The translations under genes were made by a program, and so were the position numbers. Under the pieces are notes generated by a model, which was not told the DNA's origin, did not search any database, and saw nothing but the letters and a program-made list of their open reading frames with translations. Shown one piece after another: positions 3,273 to 35,241 of a stretch of 64,000 nucleotides of DNA. This DNA is from Mycolicibacterium moriokaense (lineage in GTDB: Bacteria; Actinomycetota; Actinomycetes; Mycobacteriales; Mycobacteriaceae), in the NCBI RefSeq assembly GCF_010726085.1, contig NZ_AP022560.1:6161780-6225779 (forward strand). The letters run 5' to 3'. Positions within the stretch are counted from its first letter, which is position 1, and every line of letters starts with the position of its first letter.

Positions 3273-5798
3273 ATGCCGAAGCCGGCGCCCGAGCATGCGG
3301 CCGAAATTCCGCCGCCCGCGCGTGACGCCGTCGCGGCGCTGACCGCTGCACCGGGCGACCCGGTGAAGATGCTGGTGTCCGGCGGCATCGGCAGCGGTAA
3401 GAGTTCCGTGCTCGCCGCGGTGCGCGCCGTATTGCGGACCGCGGGTGTGCCGGTGCTGACCCGACCGCCCCGCAGTGGAGACGATCCCAAAGCCGCCGTG
3501 GTGATCGACGACGTGCATCTGCTCGACGACGACGAGCTCGCGCAACTCGTCGACCTGGTCTCCGATCCGGCCTCCACGGTCGTCGTCGCGACCGAACCAC
3601 TCGCACACCGTCCGGCGCTACGTGCCCTGACCACCGCGATCGAACGCGAGAACCCCGTCGTCTCGGTCGGCGCGCTGAGCCCGGCCGACGTCACGCGTAT
3701 CTGCACCGAAACCTTCGACGCCCCACCGACATCCGAGTTCGTCCGGGCACTCATGACGACTACGGCCGGGCTTCCCTTTCTTCTGCAGCCGGCGATCGCC
3801 GCCGCATCCTCCCGCGAAGGGGAAGCACGGGCCGCAGAGGCCGCCGGGTTCGCACTGATGGAGCGACTGCGCCGACTGGAGGAGCCGGTGCTCGACACCG
3901 TGCTTGTGATGTCGCTGAGTCCCGACCTCGGACCGGACGACGTCGCGGCGACGTTGCGGATCGAAGCCCGGAACGCGCAGACGCTGGTGGACAGCGCCCG
4001 CGCCAGCGGACTGCTCGAACCGTCACACAGCCCCACGTTCCTGCTTTCCGTGCACAGCTCCATCGCCCAGATCATCGGCGCGGCAAGGCATCACGACATC
4101 GAGATCGCGCTGCTCGTCTCGCAGATCGAATCATCAACGCTGTCAGCCGATCTCGCTCTGCGGCTGGCCGAACACGGCCTGCGTGACGACCGGCTGGCCA
4201 ACGCGTTGGCGGAGCTCGCAGCCGAGAACCAGGACCGACCCGCAAGGGCGGCGAGGCTCTACCGTGCGGCCACGGATGCAGGGGCGACGAAGTTGAACTC
4301 GCGGCTGGCTGATGCGCTTGCCCTGACCGGTGACTGTACGGCCGCCGGCCGAATCGCCGATGATCTGCTCGGCTCGAACGACCCGGCCGAACGCGCGGCG
4401 GCGGTCCGCATCGCGGCCAGTATCGCCGCGCACGACGGAAGTTCCGCGCAGGCCGCCGACTTGTTCCGTTGGCTCGGCCCCTATCCCGACGCATTCGTGA
4501 GCGCGGCCGGCGCCGTCGTCTCCCTCGCCGTCGGGGACCTGCCGACGGCGCGCGCGGTGCTCAGCGTCGAGAACGCCGGCCCGCCGACGTCGACCTCACG
4601 CGCCGCCCGCAACCTCGCCGAGGGTCTGCTGTTGTCCCTCGAGGTGCCATATCCCGCGGCCGTCGCTCGGCTCGGCCAGGCGATCGTCGCCGACCCCCAG
4701 CCGACCGGGGTGGCGCCCGATACGTCCGCTGCACTCGTCACGCTCGCCGCACTGCACGGCGGCGACCCGGTGCGCGCCCGCAGCGTGATCGGCCGCGCCG
4801 TGCGTGCCGCGCCACACGACGACCCGGAGAGTGTGGCGTTCGTCGCGCGCAGGCACCGACTGCTCCTCGGCTGGGTGAAGATGCTCGACGGCCAACTGCC
4901 GCCGGCAACCGCCGATGTCACGGCCGTGGCCGCCGACGGCCCGCTGCATCGGCGAGATGCGCTGTGGGCGGCGGCGCTGCAGACCGCGATCGCCCGCCGC
5001 AGCGGCGACACCGGTGCGGTGCAGAAGCATTGGTACACGGCGATGGAGGTGCTCGCCGAATATTCGATGGATCTCTTCTCGCTGCTGCCGCTGGGTGAGC
5101 TGTGGGTGGCCGCGGCCCGCATGCGGCAGGTCGACCGACTGCAGCACACCCTCGACGAGGCGTTCGCCCTGCTCGAGTCGCTCGGTAAGCCGCTGCTGTG
5201 GTCGGTGCCGCTGCACTGGGCGGGTGTGCACGCGGGGATCCTGGCCAATTCCCCCGAGGCGGTGGCGCCGCACGGTCAGGCGCTGACCGCAGCGGCCGGC
5301 CAGAGCGCATTCGCCAAGGCGCTGGCACAGGCGGGCCGCACCTGGCTGCGGGTGCTCGCCAATCACGTCGACACCGACGAAGTCAGCGCGGCGGCGCGGA
5401 CGCTGTCGCAGTTCGGCCTCACCTGGGACGCCACCCGGCTGGCCAGTCAGGCCGCACTGCAGACTCCCGACGGACGGGTGTCCGGGGCGATGCTGCAACT
5501 CGCACGCGACCTCAAACAGACCAGTCTGGTTGACGCCGCGCCGGACGTCGACGCGTCCACAGCGGGCGACGCACCTCCGGGTCCCACCCGGCCGGCCTCG
5601 ACGCGACTGTCCGACCGGGAGCGCGAGGTCGCCGAACTGTTGCTCCTCGGCATGCCGTACCGCGACATCGGCACGCAGTTGTTCATTTCGGCAAAGACCG
5701 TCGAGCATCACGTCGCGCGGATTCGCAGACGGTTGGGCGCTGAATCGCGCTCGGAGATGCTGTCAATGCTGCGCGCGATGCTCAGCCCGCGGAACTGA
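3273..5798 (+). CDS. iniR: IniR, STAND-type ATPase regulator with LuxR HTH
   Basis: Protein of 841 residues, ATG 3 bases after the Hsp70-like stop. Walker A GGIGSGKSS is at 37-45 and a Walker B-like AVVIDDVHLLD at about 75-85. A long helical repeat region (about 300-750) of TPR/MalT type follows. A LuxR-type helix-turn-helix ends the protein (TRLSDREREVAELLLLGMPY, then KTVEHHVARIRRRLG). This is the signal-transduction ATPase layout of MalT. Position next to iniB and the iron-sulfur reductase gene identifies it as the Rv0339c orthologue, IniR, reported to activate iniBAC in response to trehalose-linked envelope stress. The TTAGGGG clusters upstream are candidate targets. Intact, with no unusual features. 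Confidence 0.88.
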   Translation: MPKPAPEHAAEIPPPARDAVAALTAAPGDPVKMLVSGGIGSGKSSVLAAVRAVLRTAGVPVLTRPPRSGDDPKAAVVIDDVHLLDDDELAQLVDLVSDPASTVVVATEPLAHRPALRALTTAIERENPVVSVGALSPADVTRICTETFDAPPTSEFVRALMTTTAGLPFLLQPAIAAASSREGEARAAEAAGFALMERLRRLEEPVLDTVLVMSLSPDLGPDDVAATLRIEARNAQTLVDSARASGLLEPSHSPTFLLSVHSSIAQIIGAARHHDIEIALLVSQIESSTLSADLALRLAEHGLRDDRLANALAELAAENQDRPARAARLYRAATDAGATKLNSRLADALALTGDCTAAGRIADDLLGSNDPAERAAAVRIAASIAAHDGSSAQAADLFRWLGPYPDAFVSAAGAVVSLAVGDLPTARAVLSVENAGPPTSTSRAARNLAEGLLLSLEVPYPAAVARLGQAIVADPQPTGVAPDTSAALVTLAALHGGDPVRARSVIGRAVRAAPHDDPESVAFVARRHRLLLGWVKMLDGQLPPATADVTAVAADGPLHRRDALWAAALQTAIARRSGDTGAVQKHWYTAMEVLAEYSMDLFSLLPLGELWVAAARMRQVDRLQHTLDEAFALLESLGKPLLWSVPLHWAGVHAGILANSPEAVAPHGQALTAAAGQSAFAKALAQAGRTWLRVLANHVDTDEVSAAARTLSQFGLTWDATRLASQAALQTPDGRVSGAMLQLARDLKQTSLVDAAPDVDASTAGDAPPGPTRPASTRLSDREREVAELLLLGMPYRDIGTQLFISAKTVEHHVARIRRRLGAESRSEMLSMLRAMLSPRN

Positions 5799-8921: not shown

Positions 8922-10196
8922 ATGGTGGGTGTGACGACGCACCACGTGCCCCTGCATAACGCGGGCCATCACCCGCGCCAGCGCACGTTCACGCAGTCAT
9001 CCAAGCTGCAGGACGTTCTCTACGAGATCCGCGGACCGGTACACGAGCACGCGTCGCGACTGGAGGCCGAGGGCCACCGCATCCTCAAGCTGAACATCGG
9101 CAACCCGGCCCCGTTCGGGTTCGAGGCGCCCGACGTCATCATGCGCGACATGATCCAGGCGCTGCCGTATGCGCAGGGTTACTCCGATTCCAAGGGCATC
9201 CAACCCGCCCGGCGCGCGGTCTTCACCCGCTACGAGCTGATCGAGAACTTTCCGAAGTTCGACATCGACGATGTGTACCTCGGCAACGGGGTCTCCGAGC
9301 TGATCACGATGACACTGCAGGCGCTGCTGGACAACGGCGACCAGGTGCTCATCCCGGCGCCGGACTATCCGCTGTGGACCGCGTCGACCTCGCTGGCCGG
9401 CGGCACGCCGGTGCACTACCTGTGCGACGAGACCCAAGGCTGGCAGCCCGACATCGCCGATCTGGAAGCCAAGATCACCGACCGCACCAAGGCGCTGGTG
9501 GTGATCAATCCGAACAACCCGACCGGTGCGGTGTACAGCGCCGAAATCCTCGAGCAGATGGTCGAATTGGCGCGCAAGCATCAACTGCTGCTGCTCGCCG
9601 ACGAGATCTACGACAAGATTCTCTACGACGACGCTCAGCACATCTGCCTGGCCACGCTGGCGCCGGATCTGCTCACGCTGACGTTCAACGGTTTGTCCAA
9701 GGCGTATCGCGTGGCCGGATACCGCTCGGGCTGGCTGGTGATCACCGGCCCCAAGGAACATGCGGCCAGTTTCCTCGAGGGCATCAGCCTGTTGGCCAAC
9801 ATGCGGCTGTGCCCGAATGTGCCTGCGCAGTACGCGATTCAGGTTGCGCTGGGCGGATATCAGAGCATCGAGGACCTGGTGTTGCCTGGCGGACGCCTGC
9901 TCGAACAGCGCGACGTCGCATGGTCGAAGCTCAACGAGATCCCCGGGGTCTCGTGCGTGAAACCCCAAGGCGCGCTTTATGCATTCCCTCGGCTGGACCC
10001 CGAGGTGTACGACATCGTCGACGATGAACAGCTGGTTCTCGACCTGCTGCTGCAGGAGAAGATCCTGGTCACCCAGGGCACCGGCTTCAACTGGCCGACA
10101 CCCGATCATCTGCGCATCGTGACGCTGCCGTGGGCTCGTGATCTGGCCAACGCGATTGAGCGACTGGGCAACTTCCTGGTGAGCTACCGGCAGTAG
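8922..10196 (+). CDS. aspC: PLP-dependent aminotransferase, AspC/AlaA type
   Basis: Protein of 424 residues from the ATG at 8922; a TTG in frame at 8901 would add 7 residues, and neither start has a strong ribosome site. It belongs to fold-type I class I aminotransferases. The Schiff-base lysine is in FNGLSKAYRVAGYRSGW (Lys260). The substrate-binding motifs NIGNPAPFGF, LGNGVSELI, NPNNPTGAVYS and DEIYDKILYDD are all present. The sequence is close to Rv0337c along its whole length as I recall it; annotated there as aspartate aminotransferase but related to alanine transaminase AlaA. It follows the iron-sulfur reductase by 38 bases, an arrangement conserved in mycobacteria. Confidence 0.9.
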   Translation: MVGVTTHHVPLHNAGHHPRQRTFTQSSKLQDVLYEIRGPVHEHASRLEAEGHRILKLNIGNPAPFGFEAPDVIMRDMIQALPYAQGYSDSKGIQPARRAVFTRYELIENFPKFDIDDVYLGNGVSELITMTLQALLDNGDQVLIPAPDYPLWTASTSLAGGTPVHYLCDETQGWQPDIADLEAKITDRTKALVVINPNNPTGAVYSAEILEQMVELARKHQLLLLADEIYDKILYDDAQHICLATLAPDLLTLTFNGLSKAYRVAGYRSGWLVITGPKEHAASFLEGISLLANMRLCPNVPAQYAIQVALGGYQSIEDLVLPGGRLLEQRDVAWSKLNEIPGVSCVKPQGALYAFPRLDPEVYDIVDDEQLVLDLLLQEKILVTQGTGFNWPTPDHLRIVTLPWARDLANAIERLGNFLVSYRQ

Positions 10197-25578: not shown

Positions 25579-25813
25579 CGGTCCAGGACCCAGCTAGCCG
25601 CCGAGCCCGTCTACATCATTTGCACCAGATGCACTCACGAAGATGCATCTTTCACAGGATGTCAAACCCTCGCCCCAGCCGTACCTTTCTCCCTGACCAG
25701 CAACCACGGCGTCCCCAGCACAACGTCTGCGCAACCGCCGCCGAATTGATGTACTGCCTGGTTGAATGAACACACATTGGCGTCAGCCATACAGGGACGG
25801 GGTTATCACCGCC
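25579..25813. other. Intergenic region before kinase gene
   Basis: About 235 bases. It holds a perfect 10-base palindrome AGATGCATCT at 25641-25650 with a second AGATGCA at 25627, which could be an operator. No convincing promoter hexamers or gene are seen. Confidence 0.4.
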
Positions 25814-27654
25814 ATGGATGACACGGTCATCGACAGCGGCGACCCCAACGGCTCAGCATCAGACGGAGACGGTGGCGACGCCACAGAAGACCAACAGCCG
25901 GTCAAGTCCTTCGGACGTTACGGGCTGCTGTCGATGCTCGGCGCGGGCGGCATGGGCCAGGTGTGGCGGGCACGCGACTCGCAGACCAATCGGGTGGTCG
26001 CGCTGAAGGTGTTGCCCGAGAACTCCGCCGACGACGCCGAGTCGCGCGAACGGTTCCGGCGAGAGTGCGAGGCGGTGGCACAGCTGACCGAGCCACACAT
26101 CATCCCGATCCACGATTTCGGCGACGTCGACGGCCAGCTGTTTCTGAACATGCGACTTGTCGACGGTACGGATCTGCGCTCGCTGATCAAACAGGAGGGG
26201 GCGCTGACGCCGGGGCGTGCGGTGGCCATCATCACCCAGGTGGCCGGCGCACTTCAGGCCGCACACGATGTCGGGCTGGTGCACCGCGACGTCAAACCCT
26301 CCAACATCCTGGTGTGCGCCAACGACTTCGCCTATCTGATCGACTTCGGCATCGCCCACGCGTCCGGGGACGCGACGCTGACCAAGGCCGGTGAAACCAT
26401 CGGGACCGCGGCCTATATGGCTCCGGAGGCGATCGGCGCCGCCGTGAAAACCCACTCCCGCGTCGATGTGTACGCGCTGACATGCGTGCTGTACGAGTGC
26501 CTCACCGGCAGGCCACCGTTCAGCAGTGACATGGGCGTGCAGGGTTTGATCGCCCACCACCTGCACACCCCACCGCCGCAACCCAGCGCCAGCGATACCA
26601 ATGTTCCGGTGGCTTCGATGCGGTGATCGCCAAAGGGATGGCGAAGGATCCCGGCGATCGGTATGAGTCCGCTCAGGAGCTGGCCGTGGCGGCCCGCGCT
26701 GCGTTAGGCAATCCGACGGATCCCACCGCCGAAATCGCGATAGCTCGCCGGAGAAAACAAGTTCGCTTGTCGCGCAAGGCGATCGGTGTGACTGCCGCTG
26801 CGGTCGCAGTCGTGGTAGTCGCCGTCGCGGCAGTCATGATCATCGGGCGGCAGTCATCGGACGAGAGCGGCGCCTCTGTCGCCGACGACCAAGGTTACTC
26901 ATCGCAGATTCCGTTGCCGTTCTCAGACGTGCGACTCGCCACCGGGGTAGCGGTGGACCGCGAAGGCAACACGTACGTCACCGACATCGGTACCGATCGG
27001 GTGGTGGTTCTCCCGGCGGGCGGTACTTCGGCGACACCGTTGCCCTTCAGCGGCCTGAAGAACCCCCAAGATGTGGCGGTCGACGCCAAGGGTGACGTCT
27101 ACGTCGCCGACTCGGGTAATGATCGGATCCTGCGGCTGCCTGCGGGCGCGCCCGCGGCGATACCACTGCCGTTCAGTGGTCTCAACGATCCACGCGGGGT
27201 GGGAGTCGGCGCAGCAGGCGACGTATACGTCATCGACCGCGGAAACGATCGCGTGCTTCATCTGGCAGTCGACGCGCCCGCTGCGACACCGCTTCAGTTG
27301 CCCGGTCTCAACGATCCCCGAGGCGTGGCCGTTGACCCGCACGGCGACGTCTTCGTCACCGACGGCTACAACGACCGAGTGCTGAAACTGGAGGTCGGTG
27401 CACCTGCCGCGACCGAGCTACCCATTACCGGCCTCAACGATCCTCACGGGATCGCGGTTGACGCCGACCACAACATCTACATCACCGACCGGGGTAACGC
27501 CGGAGTGCTTCAATTGCGGTCGGGCGCTACCGAGGCGATACCGCTGCCCTTCACGGGCCTCAACGATCCGCAGGGTGTAGCCGTGGACGCATCGGGCGAC
27601 GTGTACGTCACCGATGCCGGCGTCACGCCGGTGGTGAAACTCCGAGTCGACTAG
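25814..27654 (+). pseudogene. PknD-like Ser/Thr kinase with NHL beta-propeller, frameshifted
   Basis: Reconstructed protein of about 613 residues. The kinase domain is complete in its catalytic parts: GAGGMGQVWRA, VALKVL, HRDVKPSNIL, DFGIAH, activation loop TIGTAAYMAPEA. After NVPVA the frame ends at a TGA (26624-26626), while the continuation AVIAKGMAKDPGDRYESAQE is in another frame; restoring one base near 26612-26614 joins them. The second part has a membrane span (residues near 320) and six NHL repeats (GVAVDxxGDVYVTDxGNDRV), an extracytoplasmic six-bladed sensor as in PknD. ATG 25766 is an alternative start. The EmbR-like regulator follows 7 bases after the stop. Either a disrupted gene or a sequencing error. 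Confidence 0.85.
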
Positions 27655-27661
27655 GGGCGTC

Positions 27662-28807
27662 GTGGTCCTGCAGGGTCTGGATTTCGGCGTGCTGGGTCCG
27701 CTACAGGTCACCGTGAACGGCCAGCCGGTCCCATTGGGCACGCCGAAGCAATGCGCGGTGTTGGCGCTGCTGCTGATCAACCGCAACCGTCCGGTCCCGC
27801 GAGACTCGATCATCACCGCGATATGGGACGAGGATTCGCCGGAAGCGGACGCCATCCACAACCTGCACGTCTACATCGCGAACCTGCGTAAGCTCCTCGG
27901 CTCCGGCGGAGTCGACCCGAAGACGGTGCTGGCCAGTGCCAGGCCCGGCTATCAGCTCAACGTGCCCGACGCCTCCTGTGACCTCGGACGGTTCGCCACC
28001 GAGAAGGCCGCCGGCGTGCAAGCGGCCGCCGCTGGTCGGTTCAAGCAAGCCGGCGATCGACTCGCTGCCGCTCTCGCGCAATGGCGCGCTCCCGTACTCG
28101 AGGACCTGCGCGAGTTCCGCTTCGTCGAATCGTTCGCCACGGCACTCATCGAGGACAAGGTGGTGGCCCAAGTGGTGCGCGCGGAGTCCGAAATCGCCTG
28201 CGGCCGTGGCGATTCAGTGATCAGCGAACTCGAAGAACTCGTCGGCGAGCACCCGTATCGAGAACCCCTGTGGGCCCAGCTGATCACTGCGTACTACGTG
28301 GCCGAGCGGCAGACCGAGGCCTTGGACGCCTTCCGCCGGGTGAAATCCGTGTTGTCCGAAGAGCTGGGCGTCGACCCCGGGCCGACGCTGCGCACACTCG
28401 AGCAACGGATCCTGCGCCAGGAGCGGTTGGACGTCCAGCAGATCGCCCAGGACGACGCGTCCGGCATTGTCACCATGCTCACGCAGCACACGATGAGTTT
28501 CACCGCGGCAGGCACGAGCCGCGCGCAGCTGCGTGACGCCGCTGGCCGCTGCTACCCACTGGAGACCGTGACCACGAGCATCGGTCGCCGCGACGACAAC
28601 GGCGTGGTGCTCGACGACCCCAAGGTGAGCCGATACCACGCCACGATCATCGACACCGGCGCCAACTTCGTGATCAACGACCTGCGCTCGGCCAACGGAG
28701 TAAAGGTGGGCGGCCAGCGCATTCGCGGCAGCACGACACTCACCGACGGCGATGTCATCTCCATCGCCGGATACCACTTCACGTTCGAGATCCCGCCTGC
28801 CTCCTGA
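27662..28807 (+). CDS. EmbR-like SARP regulator with FHA domain
   Basis: Protein of 381 residues, GTG start 7 bases after the kinase gene. The layout is OmpR-type winged helix (about 8-100; FGVLGPLQVTVNGQPVPLG, HNLHVYIANLRKLLG), BTAD helical domain (about 105-255; EALDAFRRVKSVLSEELGVD) and C-terminal FHA domain (about 295-375; SIGRRDDN, VSRYHATI, NDLRSANGV). This is the architecture of EmbR, which is phosphorylated by PknH and read through its FHA domain. Pairing with a sensor kinase suggests the same logic: the kinase phosphorylates this activator. The next promoter, 25 bases downstream, carries SARP-type direct repeats. Confidence 0.88.
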   Translation: MVLQGLDFGVLGPLQVTVNGQPVPLGTPKQCAVLALLLINRNRPVPRDSIITAIWDEDSPEADAIHNLHVYIANLRKLLGSGGVDPKTVLASARPGYQLNVPDASCDLGRFATEKAAGVQAAAAGRFKQAGDRLAAALAQWRAPVLEDLREFRFVESFATALIEDKVVAQVVRAESEIACGRGDSVISELEELVGEHPYREPLWAQLITAYYVAERQTEALDAFRRVKSVLSEELGVDPGPTLRTLEQRILRQERLDVQQIAQDDASGIVTMLTQHTMSFTAAGTSRAQLRDAAGRCYPLETVTTSIGRRDDNGVVLDDPKVSRYHATIIDTGANFVINDLRSANGVKVGGQRIRGSTTLTDGDVISIAGYHFTFEIPPAS

Positions 28808-28831
28808 CCGCCCGGCAGCACGCACGCGGCA

Positions 28832-28863
28832 TTGAGGTTCTCTTGAGGACCCGGCTCGATTCT
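28832..28863 (+). promoter_or_regulatory. SARP-type promoter, copy 1
   Basis: TTGAGGT (28832-28838) and TTGAGGA (28843-28849) are heptamers at 11-base period. Eight bases separate the second from GATTCT (28858-28863), a -10-like hexamer. Known SARP targets have heptamers separated by 4 bases with the last one 8 bases from the -10 box, so the geometry matches exactly. The same arrangement occurs at 34969-35000. Confidence 0.7.
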
Positions 28864-28899
28864 TTTCTCGACCAGCCACACCACGTGGCTACGAGAAAA
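28863..28899 (+). promoter_or_regulatory. Leader hairpin abutting ribosome site
   Basis: Outer stem TTTTCTCG (28863-28870) with CGAGAAAA (28892-28899) and inner stem AGCCAC (28874-28879) with GTGGCT (28885-28890). The 3' arm runs into the AAAGGA ribosome site of the following gene. Copy 2 keeps the outer stem but the inner one is weaker. Confidence 0.45.
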
Positions 28900-28909
28900 A
28901 GGAACTCCG

Positions 28910-29317
28910 ATGATCAAGACCCGCTTCGCCACCACCGCAGCACTCTTCACCTTCGGCCTGGCCTCCATGGGCAGCCTCGTCGTCACCATCGCCGCACCGG
29001 CCAACGCCGACGCCGCCCCCAGTGCCACTGTGGACGGCACCGCCATGAGCGGCACCGCCGGCGAGGCCGTCGATGACGCCCGCAAGGTTCCCGAGGAGCT
29101 GGCAGCCACGACCAGGGGCCCCAACGTCGCGCCGGTGTCCACCCCCGGCAGCGCGGCCACGCAGATGCACGTCCTGTTCCCATACAGTGCTGCCCCGCAC
29201 AGCGAGCACAACGGCCAGGGACACAAGGGCTCTAACGAACAACCCCACCCCCGCTTCCCCGATGCCATCGTGCCCGTTCCCGAGCCCATTCACGGCCGTA
29301 GCAACAGCGGGCGCTGA
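28910..29317 (+). CDS. Small secreted protein with PEPIHGR C-terminal motif, copy 1
   Basis: Protein of 135 residues; ATG 28910 follows AAAGGAAC. A signal peptide is clear: MIKTRFATTAALFTFGLASM, hydrophobic core, and probable cleavage after ANADA. The mature part is Ala/Pro/His-rich, without cysteines, and ends VPVPEPIHGRSNSGR. No known domain is recognised. It shares promoter, leader, first residues and C-terminal PEPIHGR motif with the 65-residue protein at 35044. The upstream regulator probably controls it. Role unknown; an exported peptide or envelope protein is plausible. Confidence 0.7.
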   Translation: MIKTRFATTAALFTFGLASMGSLVVTIAAPANADAAPSATVDGTAMSGTAGEAVDDARKVPEELAATTRGPNVAPVSTPGSAATQMHVLFPYSAAPHSEHNGQGHKGSNEQPHPRFPDAIVPVPEPIHGRSNSGR

Positions 29318-29344
29318 CCGAGCGGCGATACGCCACCCACACGT

Positions 29345-30319
29345 CTAACGATCGGTTGCCAGCCAGAGCCGCACCAGGCAGCGCCGCTTCTCGACCTCGT
29401 CTGCGTCAGTGAACGCATTCCGGTTATGGAGCATCGTGGCGTTGTCGGCGAAGAACACATCGCCGGGCTCCATCGTGAAGTCGATCGAGTTCGCCGGCTC
29501 GTTGAGGATCGCGTCGAATGCATCGAGCGCCTCGCGCTGCAGAGTCGTCAGCGGATTGCCCGAAAGATGGTGGCCCAGTTCGATGTGTAAGCGGTTGTAG
29601 CGGATCTGAACGCCTTCTGCAGTGTCGGTGAACACCGCGCCGCGCGACACCGGATCCTCCCCTTCCGCCGTGTCCTTCGACCGATCGAAAAGGAACTCAC
29701 CGTAGAGCACGTCGACGAGATCCGCCCGCGTGGCCAACAGGGTGTTGTAGGCGGTGTGACCGCTGACCATCAGCGACTCCCCACCCGAGACCGCCTTGCG
29801 TAGGCACATCAGCGCGAGGATGTCGGGACGGCTGCCGACGAAGGCGGCCGCCGAGTCGGTGTGGTAGATCATCCCGAGATTCGTCTTCGACCCGCGTGCC
29901 TCCATGAGGGTCGCGCCGGTGTCCTGAACCAGATAGACGCGTTCGCCCGCCCGGTTCTGCGGCAGCGGGCGGCCCAGATGGGTGCCGATGCCCCAATACA
30001 GCATCGAGGCTTCCTCGTCGGTCCAGCCGTCGAACGGCAGTCCGCGCAGCACGATGAACCCGGGGCCGGAGTGCACATGCGTGCTGATGGCGTCGGCCAC
30101 CTCGGCCAGCGCGGGATCGGTGAAGTCGGCTGCCTCGACGGTGTCGATCCGCTTACCGCCTCGTCGCAGGTCAGCCCGGATCCGCAGGAAGGCGTCGGCT
30201 TGGTGCGGCTCGAGCGTGACCAGGTAGGACATGTCGTCGATGGTGGCGCGATCCCATACCTGGGGTCCGGTCATCGGCCGGCGCGTACGGATCCGTTTTG
30301 TCGTCGTCAACGTCTGCAT
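29345..30319 (-). CDS. TauD/TfdA-family Fe(II)/2-oxoglutarate dioxygenase
   Basis: Protein of 324 residues from the ATG at 30319, chosen for AAAGGAG upstream; a longer open frame overlaps the divergent gene. The jelly-roll dioxygenase motif HxD is in IYHTDSAAAFVG, the distal His in NATMLHNRNAFTD, and the 2-oxoglutarate Arg in KRRCLVRLWLATD. It resembles the clavaminate-synthase-like subgroup that hydroxylates free amino acids or related compounds. Substrate unknown. It is divergent from an AbrB-family permease with 130 bases between them, which may be a functional pair. Confidence 0.82.
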   Translation of the reverse strand: MQTLTTTKRIRTRRPMTGPQVWDRATIDDMSYLVTLEPHQADAFLRIRADLRRGGKRIDTVEAADFTDPALAEVADAISTHVHSGPGFIVLRGLPFDGWTDEEASMLYWGIGTHLGRPLPQNRAGERVYLVQDTGATLMEARGSKTNLGMIYHTDSAAAFVGSRPDILALMCLRKAVSGGESLMVSGHTAYNTLLATRADLVDVLYGEFLFDRSKDTAEGEDPVSRGAVFTDTAEGVQIRYNRLHIELGHHLSGNPLTTLQREALDAFDAILNEPANSIDFTMEPGDVFFADNATMLHNRNAFTDADEVEKRRCLVRLWLATDR

Positions 30320-30449
30320 CTGCGGTCTCCTTTCTTGTGTCGCCGTGATGCGTGACCTGAGATTGGCGGCTGATTCTTTGAACTTTCTTGGAACCGTGCG
30401 TCCCGCGGCTTTTAGGAATCGCCAAGAACGAGGTCGCACCCTAGGCGCC

Positions 30450-31466
30450 ATGAACACCATCGAGCTGGTCGCAGTGGCCCTGGCCAGCGGCATCCTGGCC
30501 TGGAGCCTGGCGCGTCACGCACCCAAGGCGGTACGCGTGTCGACCCTGGCAGCCCAGGGTGTGCTCGGGGTGGCGACCGGAATCCTGGTCCGCGAGATCT
30601 CGTCGTCCGCGCTCGACGCGTCGGACTGGGTCGCGGTCCTCGCCGTCGCCGTCGGCACGCTGGCCGTGTGCATCGCCGGCGGCGCGCTGCTGAGCATGCA
30701 CCGCGGCATCAGCCCGCTGACGGGAGCGCTGTCGCTCGTCGCAGGTGGTTCGTCCGGGGTGGTGTCCATCGCCCGTGAACTCGGTGGCGACGATCGCGTC
30801 GTCGCGGCCGTGCAGTATCTACGAGTAGCCCTCATCACCGCGGCCATGCCCTTCGTCGTCGCGGTCGTCTACGGCGGCACCGCCCCCGACACGTCGCCCG
30901 AGGCCGCGACCTCCCCGCCGTTGCTTTTCGGCCTGCCGCTTATCGCGGTGATCGTCATCATCGGCGCGGCTGCCGGCCATGCGGTGCGACTGCCCGGCGC
31001 CGGGCTGCTGGGCCCAATGGCGATCACCATCGCCCTGGAGTTGAGCGGGCTGCTGGCGGGTCTGGACGTCCCGGTCTTGCTGGTCCAGTCAGCGGCTCTG
31101 CTGATCGTGTGGCAGACCGTGTTGGACCTCAATCGTGAATCGATCCGCGCGATACGCCGGATCCTGCCCACGGCGTTGACGTTGATCGTGGTGCTCAACC
31201 TGATCGTGGCCGGCTCCGGTGTGGTGCTGGCCAACGTCGCCGGCCTCAGCCAGCTCGACGGATACCTCGCGACCAGCCCCGGCGGTATCTACGCGGTGCT
31301 CGGCACGACACTCGGCTCCCACTCCGACGTCGCGTTCGTCATGACGTCGCAAGTGGTGCGCATCGTGCTGATGCTGGCCGCTGCGCCCTTTGTCGCAAAG
31401 TTGTTCCTGCGGTTCACACCTCGCAGCGCCGAGGTGAAGCGGCAGCTTGCCACCGCCACCGCCTGA
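30450..31466 (+). CDS. AbrB-family membrane protein (ammonia monooxygenase-like label)
   Basis: Protein of 338 residues from ATG 30450. About nine or ten hydrophobic spans. The AbrB duplication is visible as two similar halves, with GALSLVAGGSSGVVSIAREL in the first and GYLATSPGGIYAVLGTTLGS in the second. The family is often mislabelled ammonia monooxygenase; it is a putative transporter or membrane regulator. Convergent with the glycogen-debranching-like gene, 6 bases apart. Confidence 0.8.
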   Translation: MNTIELVAVALASGILAWSLARHAPKAVRVSTLAAQGVLGVATGILVREISSSALDASDWVAVLAVAVGTLAVCIAGGALLSMHRGISPLTGALSLVAGGSSGVVSIARELGGDDRVVAAVQYLRVALITAAMPFVVAVVYGGTAPDTSPEAATSPPLLFGLPLIAVIVIIGAAAGHAVRLPGAGLLGPMAITIALELSGLLAGLDVPVLLVQSAALLIVWQTVLDLNRESIRAIRRILPTALTLIVVLNLIVAGSGVVLANVAGLSQLDGYLATSPGGIYAVLGTTLGSHSDVAFVMTSQVVRIVLMLAAAPFVAKLFLRFTPRSAEVKRQLATATA

Positions 31467-31472
31467 GTGCTG

Positions 31473-33593
31473 TCAGTCCAACGTCAACGACCACGTATCG
31501 GGCAGACCGGTCACCTTAGCGGACTCGCCTTCTGCGTCGATGCAGACGGTGGTATCGCCGAACGTCAAGTCGGTCAACGTGATCCGACCCCAGTTGCTGG
31601 GCAGACGCGGTGAGACGGTGAGCCGCCGGTTGGGCACGTCCAGCTGTAGTCCCAGGAAGCTGCGCACCAGCAGCAGCGGCGCGGCACTCGCCCACGCCTG
31701 CGGTGAACACGACGTCGGATACGGCAGCGGGGTAGGAAATTGCGTGCGCGGGAAGCCGCAGTACAGCTCGGGCAGCCGACCGCCGAAAGCGGCTGCGGCG
31801 TCGATGATTCCGTTGGCCAGCCGTTCTGCGAGCTCCACCGCGCCCGGTAGGTGCCGGTACCGCAGCAGGCCGGCGACCGCGATCGCGGTGTCATGCGGCC
31901 AGACCGAACCGTTGTGGTAGCTCATCGGGTTGTACGCGCCCATGTCGCTGGCCAGGGTTCGCAGCCCGAAGCCGGTGTCCATCGTCGAGTCGGCGAGGCG
32001 CTCGATGATCGACGTGGCATGTTCGTCGGTGGCGATGCCGGCCCACAGACAGTGCCCCACGTTGCTGGTCAGTGCGTCGACGACCCGCTTCTCGCCGTCG
32101 AGGGCGACGGCGTAGTAGCCGCGGTCAGGCAGCCAGAATCGCTGACTGAACTTGTCGCGGAAGGACTCTGCCTCCTCGCGGAGTCGCCCGGCGGTGGCGG
32201 TGTCGCCGAGACCCTCGGCGAGATCTGCGCGTGCCCGAAGCGCGGCGTAGTGATACGCCTGCACCTCGCACAGCGCGATGGGTGGGTTGGCCAGTCGGCC
32301 GGCCGCATCGTTGATGCCGTCGAAGCTGTCCTTCCAGCCCTGGTTGACCAACCCGCGGTCGGTTGCCCGCCGGTACTCGATGAAGCCGTCGCCGTCCCGG
32401 TCGCCGTACTCGCGCGCCCACCTCAGCGCGGCGTCGGCAGCCGGCAACAGCGCGACGATCTTGTCCTTGGCGGCGCCCCACCGCCAGCTTTCGGCGAGAA
32501 GCATCACGAACAGCGGCGTGGCGTCGACCGAGCCGTAATAGACGTTGCCGCCGAGGACATCACCGCTGTCGGGGCCACGCCTGATCTCGTGCATGATGCG
32601 TCCGGGCTGCTCCTCGGTGATCGGGTCGACGCGTCTGCCCTGCGTCTCGGCCAGCTGCTGCAGCGTGCCCAGCGACAGCGCGACCTCCAAGGGCAACGCC
32701 ATCCACGCCGTGAGGAGACTGTCGCGGCCGAACAACGTCATGAACCACGGCGCACCGGCAGCGACGAACGAGCGTCCCGGCCGACGCTCGTCGTGCATCA
32801 GCAGCGCACCGATATCGCTTTCGGTCTGCCGCAGCACCGCGGTGAGTGCGGGCAGGTCGGTGTCGATATTGGTGGAACTCTTGCGCCACCGCGCGATCTT
32901 GCGACCGGGACCGCTGCGCTCGGGGCGCTGCCCACGCTGAAAGCGCGTGGACAGCTTGCGATTACCCCACGTCGGCTGCGCGACGATCTCGGTCTGCCAC
33001 TGCTGACGGGGTTCGATGACGATGCGCCATGTCAGAGCGCCTGCCGCGACGATGGGGTTACCAGAGGCGGAGACCGTCACGCCGCGGACCGACTCGCTGC
33101 GCTCCCGCAGGACCAATTCACCGTCGATCACGGCGATTTCGGCATTGCTGGCGACAGCCCTGCCCTCCTTGACGGCGAACAGGTCGGCGAAGTCGCCGTC
33201 GACGTGCAGCACCAGGGTGACGACGGTCGACTCGCGGTCGAGGTTGTGCAGGGTGACGATCTCCCGCATACCGTCGGCGACCAAGCGCTCGCGGGTCAAC
33301 AGCAGCGTGCTGTCGGCCCGGCCCGCGCCCGGTGCCCGTCGTGAGACGAACTGTCCGGTGAAGGCTTCCGGCGTCTGCGCGGATAGTGGCTCGGGTGTGA
33401 CGCCGTCGACGGTCAGCTCCCAGCGCGACAGTATCCGCGCATCCCGGAAGAACAGGCCGTGGGAGCGGGCCGGGGTGATGTCCCCGTGCCGGTCGGAGAG
33501 GCAGAATGTGCCGCCCTCGACCAGCGTGACGGTGTCACCCGCCGCCGCATTGGCCGGCTCGCCGGCGTTGAGCACACCCGAGCCAGGGATCAT
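31473..33593 (-). CDS. Glycogen debranching-like (amylo-alpha-1,6-glucosidase family) protein
   Basis: Protein of 706 residues. The ATG at 33593 overlaps the upstream stop as ATGA, which decides the start. N-terminal beta domain (VTLVEGGTFCLSDRHGDITP, HGLFFRDARILSRWELTVDG) of the GDE N-terminal type and a C-terminal (alpha/alpha)6 barrel (WFMTLFGRDSLLTAWMALPL, LVNQGWKDSFDGI, SYHNGSVWPHDTAIAVAGLL) with the acidic residues expected of GH15/GH63-like enzymes. It should hydrolyse an alpha-glucosidic bond in a storage or compatible glucan; trehalose or glucosylglycerate-type substrates are possible. Translationally coupled to a GT4 glycosyltransferase. Confidence 0.85.
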   Translation of the reverse strand: MIPGSGVLNAGEPANAAAGDTVTLVEGGTFCLSDRHGDITPARSHGLFFRDARILSRWELTVDGVTPEPLSAQTPEAFTGQFVSRRAPGAGRADSTLLLTRERLVADGMREIVTLHNLDRESTVVTLVLHVDGDFADLFAVKEGRAVASNAEIAVIDGELVLRERSESVRGVTVSASGNPIVAAGALTWRIVIEPRQQWQTEIVAQPTWGNRKLSTRFQRGQRPERSGPGRKIARWRKSSTNIDTDLPALTAVLRQTESDIGALLMHDERRPGRSFVAAGAPWFMTLFGRDSLLTAWMALPLEVALSLGTLQQLAETQGRRVDPITEEQPGRIMHEIRRGPDSGDVLGGNVYYGSVDATPLFVMLLAESWRWGAAKDKIVALLPAADAALRWAREYGDRDGDGFIEYRRATDRGLVNQGWKDSFDGINDAAGRLANPPIALCEVQAYHYAALRARADLAEGLGDTATAGRLREEAESFRDKFSQRFWLPDRGYYAVALDGEKRVVDALTSNVGHCLWAGIATDEHATSIIERLADSTMDTGFGLRTLASDMGAYNPMSYHNGSVWPHDTAIAVAGLLRYRHLPGAVELAERLANGIIDAAAAFGGRLPELYCGFPRTQFPTPLPYPTSCSPQAWASAAPLLLVRSFLGLQLDVPNRRLTVSPRLPSNWGRITLTDLTFGDTTVCIDAEGESAKVTGLPDTWSLTLD

Positions 33594-34783
33594 GCCGATG
33601 CCTTCGAACGCGTGACGGGTTTCGTGATGGCAGGTGACGCCGGGGCCGTGCGGCGGCGCAGCCACGATGCGGGCCGACGGGCGGCACTGCGGCCGAACAC
33701 CTCGTAGTAGATCTGCTCATATCCCGAGCCGAACTGCGCCACAGTGAAGTTCGACGCGATGTGGTGCCGGCACGCCGCCGGGTCGATGTCGCTGGACTTC
33801 TCGATCGCGGCGGGCAGTTCGTCGGGATGGTCGCAGATGATCCCGGTGACGCCGTCGTTGATCACCTCCGGCACGGCGCCCCCGCGCAACGCGACCACAG
33901 GGGTGCCGCAGGCCATGGCCTCGATCATGACCATGCCGAACGGCTCTTCCCACTGCACCGGGAACAGCACGCAGCGGGCGTTGGCCAGCAGGCGCCGCTT
34001 GCTGGTGGCGTCGGCCTCGCCGAAGACCGTGTCGGAGTCGGTCAGCAGCGGTGCGACGAATTCCTCGAAGTAGGCCTTCTCGGCCGGTTCGTCGCACTTG
34101 CCGGCCAGCACCAGCGGCACGCCGGCACGGTGGGCGGCCTCCAGCGCCAGGTGGGCTCCCTTGTACGGCGCATAGCGGCCGAGGAACAGCGCATAGTCCT
34201 GTTTGTCCTGTTTGAAGGGCCAGTCCTCGATTCGCAGGGCGTTGTGCACCCGGCCGACCCAGTTGAGGTCCGGGGCCAGCTCGCGCTGGCGGTCGCTGAT
34301 CGCGATCAGCCCGGCATCTGTGCCGAGTGCCTGGTAGAAGGGCAGCAGGTCATCGTCGAGTGGGCCGTGCACCGTGACGACGGTGGGCAGGCCGAGGCCG
34401 GCGTAGAGCGCGGCATTGAGGGGTCCGGCCATGGTGTGCTCGTGGACGATATCGACGCCTTCGGTGCTCGCGAGGTCTTCGATCGCCCGGCGCGTCTTCA
34501 GAGCGTGCATGACCTCGGGATATGGCTGGCCGAGGCGGTCGCTCTGGATGTCGTCCCAGACCGGCATGAAGTGGGCGGCGGTGCCGGGTTTACCTGCGCC
34601 GACCAGGGTCACGTGGTGACCTCGGGCGACCAGGGCATCGGCCAGATCAGCGACGACGGCTTCCGTTCCGCCGTATCCCTGCGGCGGCACATCGAAATAC
34701 GGGGGCGCAACAAGGGCGATGCGCAGGGGCTTCAGTTCTGAGTCCTTGACGAATCCGTTCTTGACGTAATCGGTGCCGCTCAC
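33590..34783 (-). CDS. GT4-family glycosyltransferase
   Basis: Protein of 397 residues. The GTG at 34783 has AAGGAG upstream; the frame extends to 34825 but would run into the CIRCE-like region. GT-B fold: N-terminal RIALVAPPYFDVPPQGYGG, acceptor region HEHTMAGPLNAALYA, and C-terminal donor site LFPVQWEEPFGMVMIEAMAC with GTPVVALRGGAVPEVI, including the EPFG-E pair of retaining GT4 enzymes. Donor and acceptor are not evident. Stop overlaps the debranching-like start, so the two enzymes are made together; a synthesis/trimming pair on one glucan is plausible. Confidence 0.88.
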   Translation of the reverse strand: MSGTDYVKNGFVKDSELKPLRIALVAPPYFDVPPQGYGGTEAVVADLADALVARGHHVTLVGAGKPGTAAHFMPVWDDIQSDRLGQPYPEVMHALKTRRAIEDLASTEGVDIVHEHTMAGPLNAALYAGLGLPTVVTVHGPLDDDLLPFYQALGTDAGLIAISDRQRELAPDLNWVGRVHNALRIEDWPFKQDKQDYALFLGRYAPYKGAHLALEAAHRAGVPLVLAGKCDEPAEKAYFEEFVAPLLTDSDTVFGEADATSKRRLLANARCVLFPVQWEEPFGMVMIEAMACGTPVVALRGGAVPEVINDGVTGIICDHPDELPAAIEKSSDIDPAACRHHIASNFTVAQFGSGYEQIYYEVFGRSAARRPASWLRRRTAPASPAITKPVTRSKASA

Positions 34784-34812
34784 AGTCTCTCCTTCCCACC
34801 AAGCAAGCAGCG

Positions 34813-34839
34813 TTAGCACTCTCACCCATCAAGTGCTAA
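34813..34839 (-). promoter_or_regulatory. CIRCE-like element (HrcA operator)
   Basis: TTAGCACTC (34813-34821), 9-base spacer, AAGTGCTAA (34831-34839). The CIRCE consensus is TTAGCACTC-N9-GAGTGCTAA, so 17 of 18 arm bases match. It lies 29 bases before the glycosyltransferase start, the usual place for an HrcA operator. Heat-shock control of the GT4/debranching operon is inferred. Confidence 0.75.
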
Positions 34840-34968
34840 TTATGGCGACGCGACGAAATGCCGCAACCCCGCCCACTGATACGCAAGTGGTTGTCCGACA
34901 GTCGGTTCCGCTCGTCGCCCCCGCAAGCCTGAGGACGGGCCGCCCGTGTCTGCGCCGCGGGCGGCGCA

Positions 34969-35000
34969 TTGAGGTTCTGTTGAGGTCCCGGCTCGATTCT
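34969..35000 (+). promoter_or_regulatory. SARP-type promoter, copy 2
   Basis: TTGAGGT (34969-34975) and TTGAGGT (34980-34986), period 11, then 8 bases to GATTCT (34995-35000). The surrounding DNA from about 34965 to 35050 is nearly identical to 28828-28916, including a partly conserved leader hairpin and ribosome site. Confidence 0.7.
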
Positions 35001-35043
35001 TTCTCAACCAGCCACACCACATGGCCACGAGAAAGGAACCCCG

Positions 35044-35241
35044 ATGATCAAGAACTCCATCGCCACCCTGATCAGCTTCGGCTTGGCCGCCCTCGGCGGG
35101 ATCCCCATCGCCACCACCGCCGCCCTGATCACCTTCGGCCTGGCCGCCCTCAGCGGAATGCCCATCGCCAGCGCCGACGCCGCCCTGAGCGCCACCGTGG
35201 ACGTCCCCGAGCCCATCCACGGCAGGCACGGCGAGCGCTGA
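35044..35241 (+). CDS. Small secreted protein with PEPIHGR motif, copy 2
   Basis: Protein of 65 residues; ATG 35044 follows GAAAGGAAC. It begins MIKN like copy 1 and ends VDVPEPIHGRHGER. The hydrophobic part contains a tandem duplication (ISFGLAALGGIPIATTAAL, then ITFGLAALSGMPIASADAAL), so the signal peptide is doubled in length; cleavage after SADA would leave only about 20 residues ending in the conserved motif. Too short for standard gene finding, but duplicated regulatory DNA and conserved ends support expression. Function unknown. Confidence 0.65.
   Translation: MIKNSIATLISFGLAALGGIPIATTAALITFGLAALSGMPIASADAALSATVDVPEPIHGRHGER
35071..35187 (+). repeat. In-frame 57/60-base tandem duplication
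   Basis: Unit 1 starts at 35071 (ATC AGC TTC GGC) and unit 2 at 35128 (ATC ACC TTC GGC). They encode 19 and 20 residues that differ at only a few positions. The duplication lies wholly inside the signal-peptide region of the small secreted protein. Confidence 0.7.

Follow-up and report, generated by a model that had tools for sequence, protein, structure and literature searches.

Promoters activated by SARP-family regulators carry direct repeats at an interval of 11 or 22 bp, of which the 3' one lies 8 bp from the -10 element; excerpts of the published AfsR study (PMC10936776) place the afs box at -40 to -19 and its -35 element, TTCAGC, at -38 to -33. Both SARP promoters and regulators of the EmbR type have been described before. 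Here we describe a box of two direct repeats followed by a -10 hexamer, which occurs twice in the final 64 kb of the Mycolicibacterium moriokaense genome (one contig of 6,225,779 bases; these 64 kb are the whole stretch of DNA analysed, hereafter the window), together with the gene for a SARP-FHA regulator that ends immediately upstream from the first copy. Sequence comparison supports, with a probability of roughly 0.8, the reading that this regulator and this box belong together. In the mechanism that we propose, the SARP-FHA protein (27662-28807) would bind both 11-bp direct repeats, side by side and across the -35 region, and would recruit RNA polymerase to the weak -10 hexamer GATTCT, like AfsR at the afsS promoter.

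Copy 1 consists of TTGAGGT (28832-28838), TCTC, TTGAGGA (28843-28849), CCCGGCTC and GATTCT (28858-28863), and copy 2 of TTGAGGT (34969-34975), TCTG, TTGAGGT (34980-34986), CCCGGCTC and GATTCT (34995-35000). A first-pass annotation of this DNA had reported TTGAGGT-N4-TTGAGGW-N8-GATTCT twice, at 28832 and 34969, in nearly identical flanks; coordinates and spacings were confirmed, and 75 of 85 columns were identical when both copies were aligned from 4 nt 5' of the first repeat to the start codon. The similarity extends into signal-peptide-like codons. To judge from this alignment, the window copies go back to duplication of a single unit, promoter and gene start together, and for that reason neither counts as separate support for the other; independent evidence for the box comes from relatives.

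The box pattern with up to two mismatches matched twice in the window, versus 0.09 matches expected, and one of 100 shuffles reached two. In the 6.2-Mb genome, exact TTGAGG-N5-TTGAGG was found at the two window sites only. With one mismatch the double hexamer occurred at 10 places, versus 14 for the reversed pattern, so that one-mismatch matches in this genome are background. A chance repeat was rejected on the basis of the genome-wide uniqueness of the exact pair and of the reversed controls.

The stop codon of the SARP gene (28807) lies 24 nt 5' of the first repeat of copy 1, in agreement with the initial claim that a SARP/FHA gene directly precedes this copy. The encoded protein has an OmpR-type winged helix followed by BTAD, as SARPs do, and a C-terminal FHA domain after BTAD, as EmbR-type SARP-FHA proteins do, all three over the Pfam cut-offs (Trans_reg_C, 2.4e-12; BTAD, 2e-43; FHA, 7.9e-18). 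In a sequence search its best solved relative was EmbR 2fez (residues 4-378 aligned, E 7.6e-149), with the AfsR structure next; by sequence the regulator is a relative of EmbR and not a new kind. The regulator and 13 orthologs formed one group in a tree of 81 sequences (14/14 rows, support 100/100). Of 186 loci found, 80 were kept; in these, identities were 73-93% inside the ortholog group and at most 66% outside it.

The distribution of box and ortholog was surveyed in 198 genomes of the genus. An identity of at least 73% defined the ortholog, present in 12 genomes, and the next of the matches listed reached at most 63%. The exact pattern was found at 19 places in 11 of the 198 genomes (reversed control, 1 place), namely in 9/12 genomes with the ortholog versus 2/186 without it. 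The relaxed pattern was found at 41 places in 16 genomes (reversed control, 0), in 12/12 genomes with the ortholog versus 4/186 without. When only the 100 genomes encoding any EmbR-family protein (E<=1e-110) were considered, the relaxed box occurred in 12/12 with the ortholog versus 4/88 without. Ortholog genomes held 36 of the 41 relaxed boxes, 17 within 10 kb of the regulator gene and 19 farther away or on another contig. In 13/13 ortholog loci a repeat pair lay no farther than 3 kb from the regulator gene, in 12 of them together with a -10.

The first-pass annotation had presented the repeat as a predicted regulon motif. The motif stood, in that the box tracks the ortholog across the genus; the regulon did not extend in the window genome, where the relaxed box matches just two sites, one of them before a gene remnant, and a larger regulon was rejected on this count.

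Some individual boxes departed from the common form. Of the 36 in ortholog genomes, the box at 9956 in G062 has a poor -10. In M. barrassiae (L011:11171-11215) the regulator-side box has kept both repeats and lost the -10 together with the leader stem described below, in what looks like a deletion between two GGCT copies. In L092 and L098 (genomes G086 and G108) an exact TTGAGG-N5-TTGAGG box with GATCGT as -10 stands before a very short basic open reading frame (ORF).

The box repeats are 11 bp apart and the 3' repeat is 8 bp from the -10, as the SARP rule excerpted from PMC10936776 has it; with the -10 hexamer assumed to span -12 to -7, TTGAGG would likewise occupy -38 to -33. Counts of exact hexamer pairs across the 12 genomes with the ortholog were 19 at gap 5, versus 3, 1, 1, 0, 2, 4, 1, 0, 3 and 1 at gaps 1, 2, 4, 7, 8, 10, 11, 13, 14 and 16. 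Gaps that are multiples of three gave 10-23 pairs each, which we read as codon periodicity. Summed over all gaps there were 118 pairs versus 105 for the reversed hexamer, and the excess sits at gap 5. The gap spectrum and the published rule, as excerpted, bear out the initial description of this geometry as the hallmark of SARP activation.

Over 29 sites the repeat unit approximates C-R-TTGAGG-N-Y-C, twice; the invariance in this set is partly built in, because the sites were chosen by repeat and -10 matches. The 19 exact-pattern places are less selected, only the A and T of the -10 being fixed and the pattern being taken from the window only. At their free positions, T occupies position 3 in 18/19 and C position 5 in 16/19, and the second spacer base is T in 17/19. 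This conservation bears on the possibility that the repeats are the leftover of a promoter-gene duplication with no regulatory role, a reading in keeping with the origin of the window copies as one duplicated unit, with the decay of the gene after copy 2 and with the loss of the -10 in M. barrassiae. We consider it very improbable, given the conserved free positions and the fact that the box is found in relatives 5' of at least three unrelated kinds of gene; mere duplication was rejected on the latter ground.

These genes include, 3' of the box, a second exported-looking family (e.g. L144, L158, L159) and an amino-acid permease (AA_permease_2, 5.2e-51) in L012, L018 and L019. The output of activation would accordingly differ among relatives: genes for small, probably exported proteins, and the permease in some of them. 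In the window, the signal-peptide-like N terminus of the 135-aa protein after copy 1 was recognised by eye. Its family has invariant residues including P96, H100, G102, G104, K106, G107 and N109 (17 aligned members), and no family was assigned to it in Pfam (up to E 0.1) or NCBIfam. The AlphaFold2 model, from 17 sequences, was poor and mostly of low confidence (mean predicted local distance difference test score 52.4; predicted template modelling score 0.14). The 65-aa remnant after copy 2 shows, in the family alignment, a doubled signal-like region and the last residues, the conserved core being absent. In L020 (M. moriokaense) four boxes, at 5412, 8034, 12216 and 12885, surround one SARP gene; some of them precede short or shifted frames, and target genes seem often to duplicate and decay.

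Related boxes accompany other EmbR-type regulators. In the EmbR-type loci L024-L090, with up to three mismatches, a related box was found at 20 sites in 16/67 loci (reversed control, 1 site), several of the sites being directly 3' of the regulator gene and 5' of short secreted-looking proteins. At this threshold it was not found in 51/67 loci, which leaves the picture of the paralog box incomplete. A search of the 198 genomes for TTGAGRATCCNYCAAGG-N9-GARGCT (up to two mismatches) gave 57 sites in 35 genomes (reversed control, 1); 34 of these 35 genomes encode an EmbR-family protein, versus 100/198 overall, and at least 18/57 boxes lie within 6 kb, and at least 25/57 within 20 kb, of an EmbR-family gene. 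The recognition helix differs between the studied clade and the paralog group, and the paralogs with the other helix accompany another half-site, the spacing being unchanged.

At three EmbR-type boxes (L043:11153, L060:11210 and L064:11170) an inverted repeat encloses the -10, with the arms GGTTCGGCCC / GGGCCGAACC in L043 and L060; its 5' arm therefore lies upstream of any transcript start.

Some other winged-helix regulator, for instance one of the OmpR/PhoP type or from elsewhere in the EmbR family, might bind the TTGAGG repeats, the SARP being a mere neighbour. M. tuberculosis PhoP recognises direct repeats of 7 bp separated by 4 bp, according to excerpts of PMC4832192, and the window genome has three further EmbR-family genes. 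This is improbable in view of the survey, in which the box tracks the ortholog and not the EmbR family generally, of the different half-site found with the paralogs, and of the 8 bp to the -10, which is the SARP position. Pairing of the box with the adjacent SARP-FHA regulator is the reading that we prefer.

Several observations weigh against this pairing. Of the AfsR contact residues (by alignment, own numbering), W74, R94 and K95 are kept in the regulator, S91 is replaced by A, and the base-reading residues have changed (T88 to V, R92 to N); EmbR likewise has N at position 92. The M. barrassiae box has no -10 although its repeats are kept. The box also occurs without the ortholog, in its exact form in G086 and G108 and in its relaxed form in the 4/186 genomes mentioned above. 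Shared ancestry inflates the P values of box-ortholog co-occurrence, and some of the loci from which the relaxed pattern was derived belong to close relatives of the surveyed genomes. Finally, the kinase gene upstream from the regulator is split between two frames in the window genome.

This kinase gene, which encodes a kinase domain and an NHL propeller, is located directly 5' of the regulator gene in 13/13 ortholog loci, and kinase and propeller share one frame in 12/13. If the pair works as PknH and EmbR do, the PknD-like kinase would control the regulator by phosphorylation through the FHA domain. The split in the window genome may be due to a mutation or to a sequencing error; unless it is the latter, the regulator may have lost its kinase input, may receive it in altered form or may take it from a different kinase. 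In this genome the link to the kinase is less strong. In M. barrassiae (L011) a frame change is found elsewhere in the kinase-NHL gene. Of the uncharacterised kinase-regulator system announced by the first-pass annotation, the adjacency of the kinase gene was borne out in all ortholog loci; the kinase is split here and the regulator is an EmbR relative. The features of the locus are listed in Table 1.

Table 1. Coordinates of the boxes, leaders and genes within the window.
Feature	Position	Strand	Basis
SARP box copy 1: two 11-bp direct repeats, hexamers at 28832 and 28843	28830..28851	+	
-10 hexamer GATTCT, copy 1, 8 bp 3' of the second heptamer	28858..28863	+	conserved in relatives
SARP box copy 2, hexamers at 34969 and 34980	34967..34988	+	
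-10 hexamer GATTCT, copy 2	34995..35000	+	
EmbR-type SARP regulator: winged helix, BTAD, FHA	27662..28807	+	Pfam Trans_reg_C, BTAD, FHA; EmbR 2fez, then AfsR
Predicted target gene 1: 135 aa, signal-peptide-like N terminus, orphan family	28910..29317	+	ORF; 53 homologs at E<=1e-3; no Pfam
Predicted target gene 2: 65-aa remnant	35044..35241	+	ORF versus family alignment
Leader stem-loop copy 1: outer arms 28864-28870/28892-28898, inner arms 28874-28879/28885-28890	28864..28898	+	folding, covariation
Leader stem-loop copy 2, weaker	35001..35033	+	folding, -8.1 versus -17.9 kcal/mol for copy 1
PknD-like Ser/Thr kinase domain ORF, C-lobe cut by frame change	25766..26626	+	Pfam Pkinase 6.5e-46, profile 4-201 of 263
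Rest of kinase gene: end of kinase domain, membrane-segment-like stretch (by eye), NHL beta-propeller	26623..27654	+	Pfam NHL 6.8e-33, translation

A predicted stem-loop spans the leader from just 3' of the -10 to just 5' of the Shine-Dalgarno (SD) sequence. Rfam returned one tRNA and nothing else for the window. In copy 1 the stem is directly 5' of the SD (28899-28904), with a predicted SD opening of 4.06 versus 1.17 kcal/mol. In 28 distinct leaders, matched outer arms paired better than swapped ones, and 0/5000 permutations were as good; for the inner arms 13/5000 were as good as the matched pairing. These permutation statistics ignore kinship.

Predicted SD opening over 41 sites was 5.87 kcal/mol with the 5' arm and 1.84 without, and was more than 0.2 higher with the arm in 36/41; the sites are not all independent, and they include L019 (reverse strand), which has no convincing target, and L141, which is of the paralog type. 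When the upstream 38 nt of other sites were substituted, the value fell to 4.58 (30 rounds, maximum 5.12). The difference of 4.03 compares with 1.23 in 144 control ORFs, mechanically defined, from like loci.

With transcription assumed to start some 7 nt 3' of the -10, a large part of the 5' outer arm would be confined to read-through RNA. We infer from folding models and by analogy, and boldly, that in such RNA the 5' arm may mask the SD; in copy 1 the core SD is just outside the stem, so that masking may be partial. An intrinsic terminator was rejected, as purines and not a T run follow the stem, although no terminator scan was made.

The inverted repeat after the -10 could instead be a DNA operator for a second protein. 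Its 5' outer arm begins right at the end of the -10, which should leave much of it outside SARP-initiated RNA, and by eye the arms resemble inverted SARP half-sites (CTCAA / GAGAA). A protein site would keep its letters, however, and here the arms covary with pairing kept (TTCTTC/GAAGAA in L015, TCTCCTC/GAGGAGA in L021); matched outer arms beat swapped ones in all 5000 permutations, and SD masking exceeds that of the control ORFs. We regard an operator as rather unlikely, and favour an RNA stem that would insulate against read-through.

The apparently new elements are the box itself and its inheritance alongside a single clade of regulators, the variant found with the paralogs, and the stem in the leader. 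A literature search retrieved no paper defining the box or an EmbR consensus, a result that does not establish novelty, several of the searches being noisy and subscription papers lying outside them; the main text of one EmbR paper (PMC9239209) contains none of the words motif, consensus and ChIP. We tentatively suggest, at somewhat less than even odds, that mycobacterial EmbR-family SARP-FHA paralogs share a promoter code of two half-sites 11 bp apart with a -10 at a fixed distance, in which the recognition helix would set the half-site and each regulator would have its own set of genes for small secreted proteins, and that the promoter of the studied clade lies inside an anti-SD hairpin, which would restrict translation to regulator-initiated transcripts. 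If true, a clade of kinase-linked SARP regulators would have a defined DNA target and the paralog box would be a candidate target code for EmbR-type proteins, making regulons predictable from sequence. These regulators would be tied to small secreted-protein families, and the leader stem would be a case of a chromosomal promoter guarding against translation of read-through RNA.

The leader recalls phage T4 gene e, where, in excerpts of PMC3014915, longer transcripts have their start region masked by a stem; the promoter lies inside the DNA that encodes the 5' strand of this stem, and RNAs initiated at the nearby late promoters do not contain its 5' part. The window leader differs in being predicted from folding and covariation, with an assumed transcript start and, in copy 1, a core SD outside the stem.

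The operators of PimR, a SARP-LAL protein, are similar to the box in having heptamers, 4-bp spacers and 22-bp boxes; the PimR heptamer is CGGCAAG, and its main operator does not overlap the -35 (excerpts of PMC5930380). The afsS promoter of Streptomyces, activated by AfsR, is closer: in excerpts of PMC10936776 it has two 11-bp repeats over the -35 region, the 3' one 8 bp from a weak -10, and TTCAGC occupies the positions, -38 to -33, that TTGAGG would occupy in the window with the -10 at -12. In contrast to AfsR, which has NOD/TPR domains, the window regulator has an FHA domain, and the half-site letters and base-reading residues differ. EmbR (Rv1267c) and PknH of M. tuberculosis resemble the window system in the three domains in common and in the location of the regulator gene next to a Ser/Thr kinase gene. 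They differ from it in that the window kinase gene is upstream and encodes an NHL propeller, in the recognition helix, and in the repeat itself, the studied clade having a TTGAGG pair and the EmbR-type loci a TTGAGR-NYCAAGG pair.

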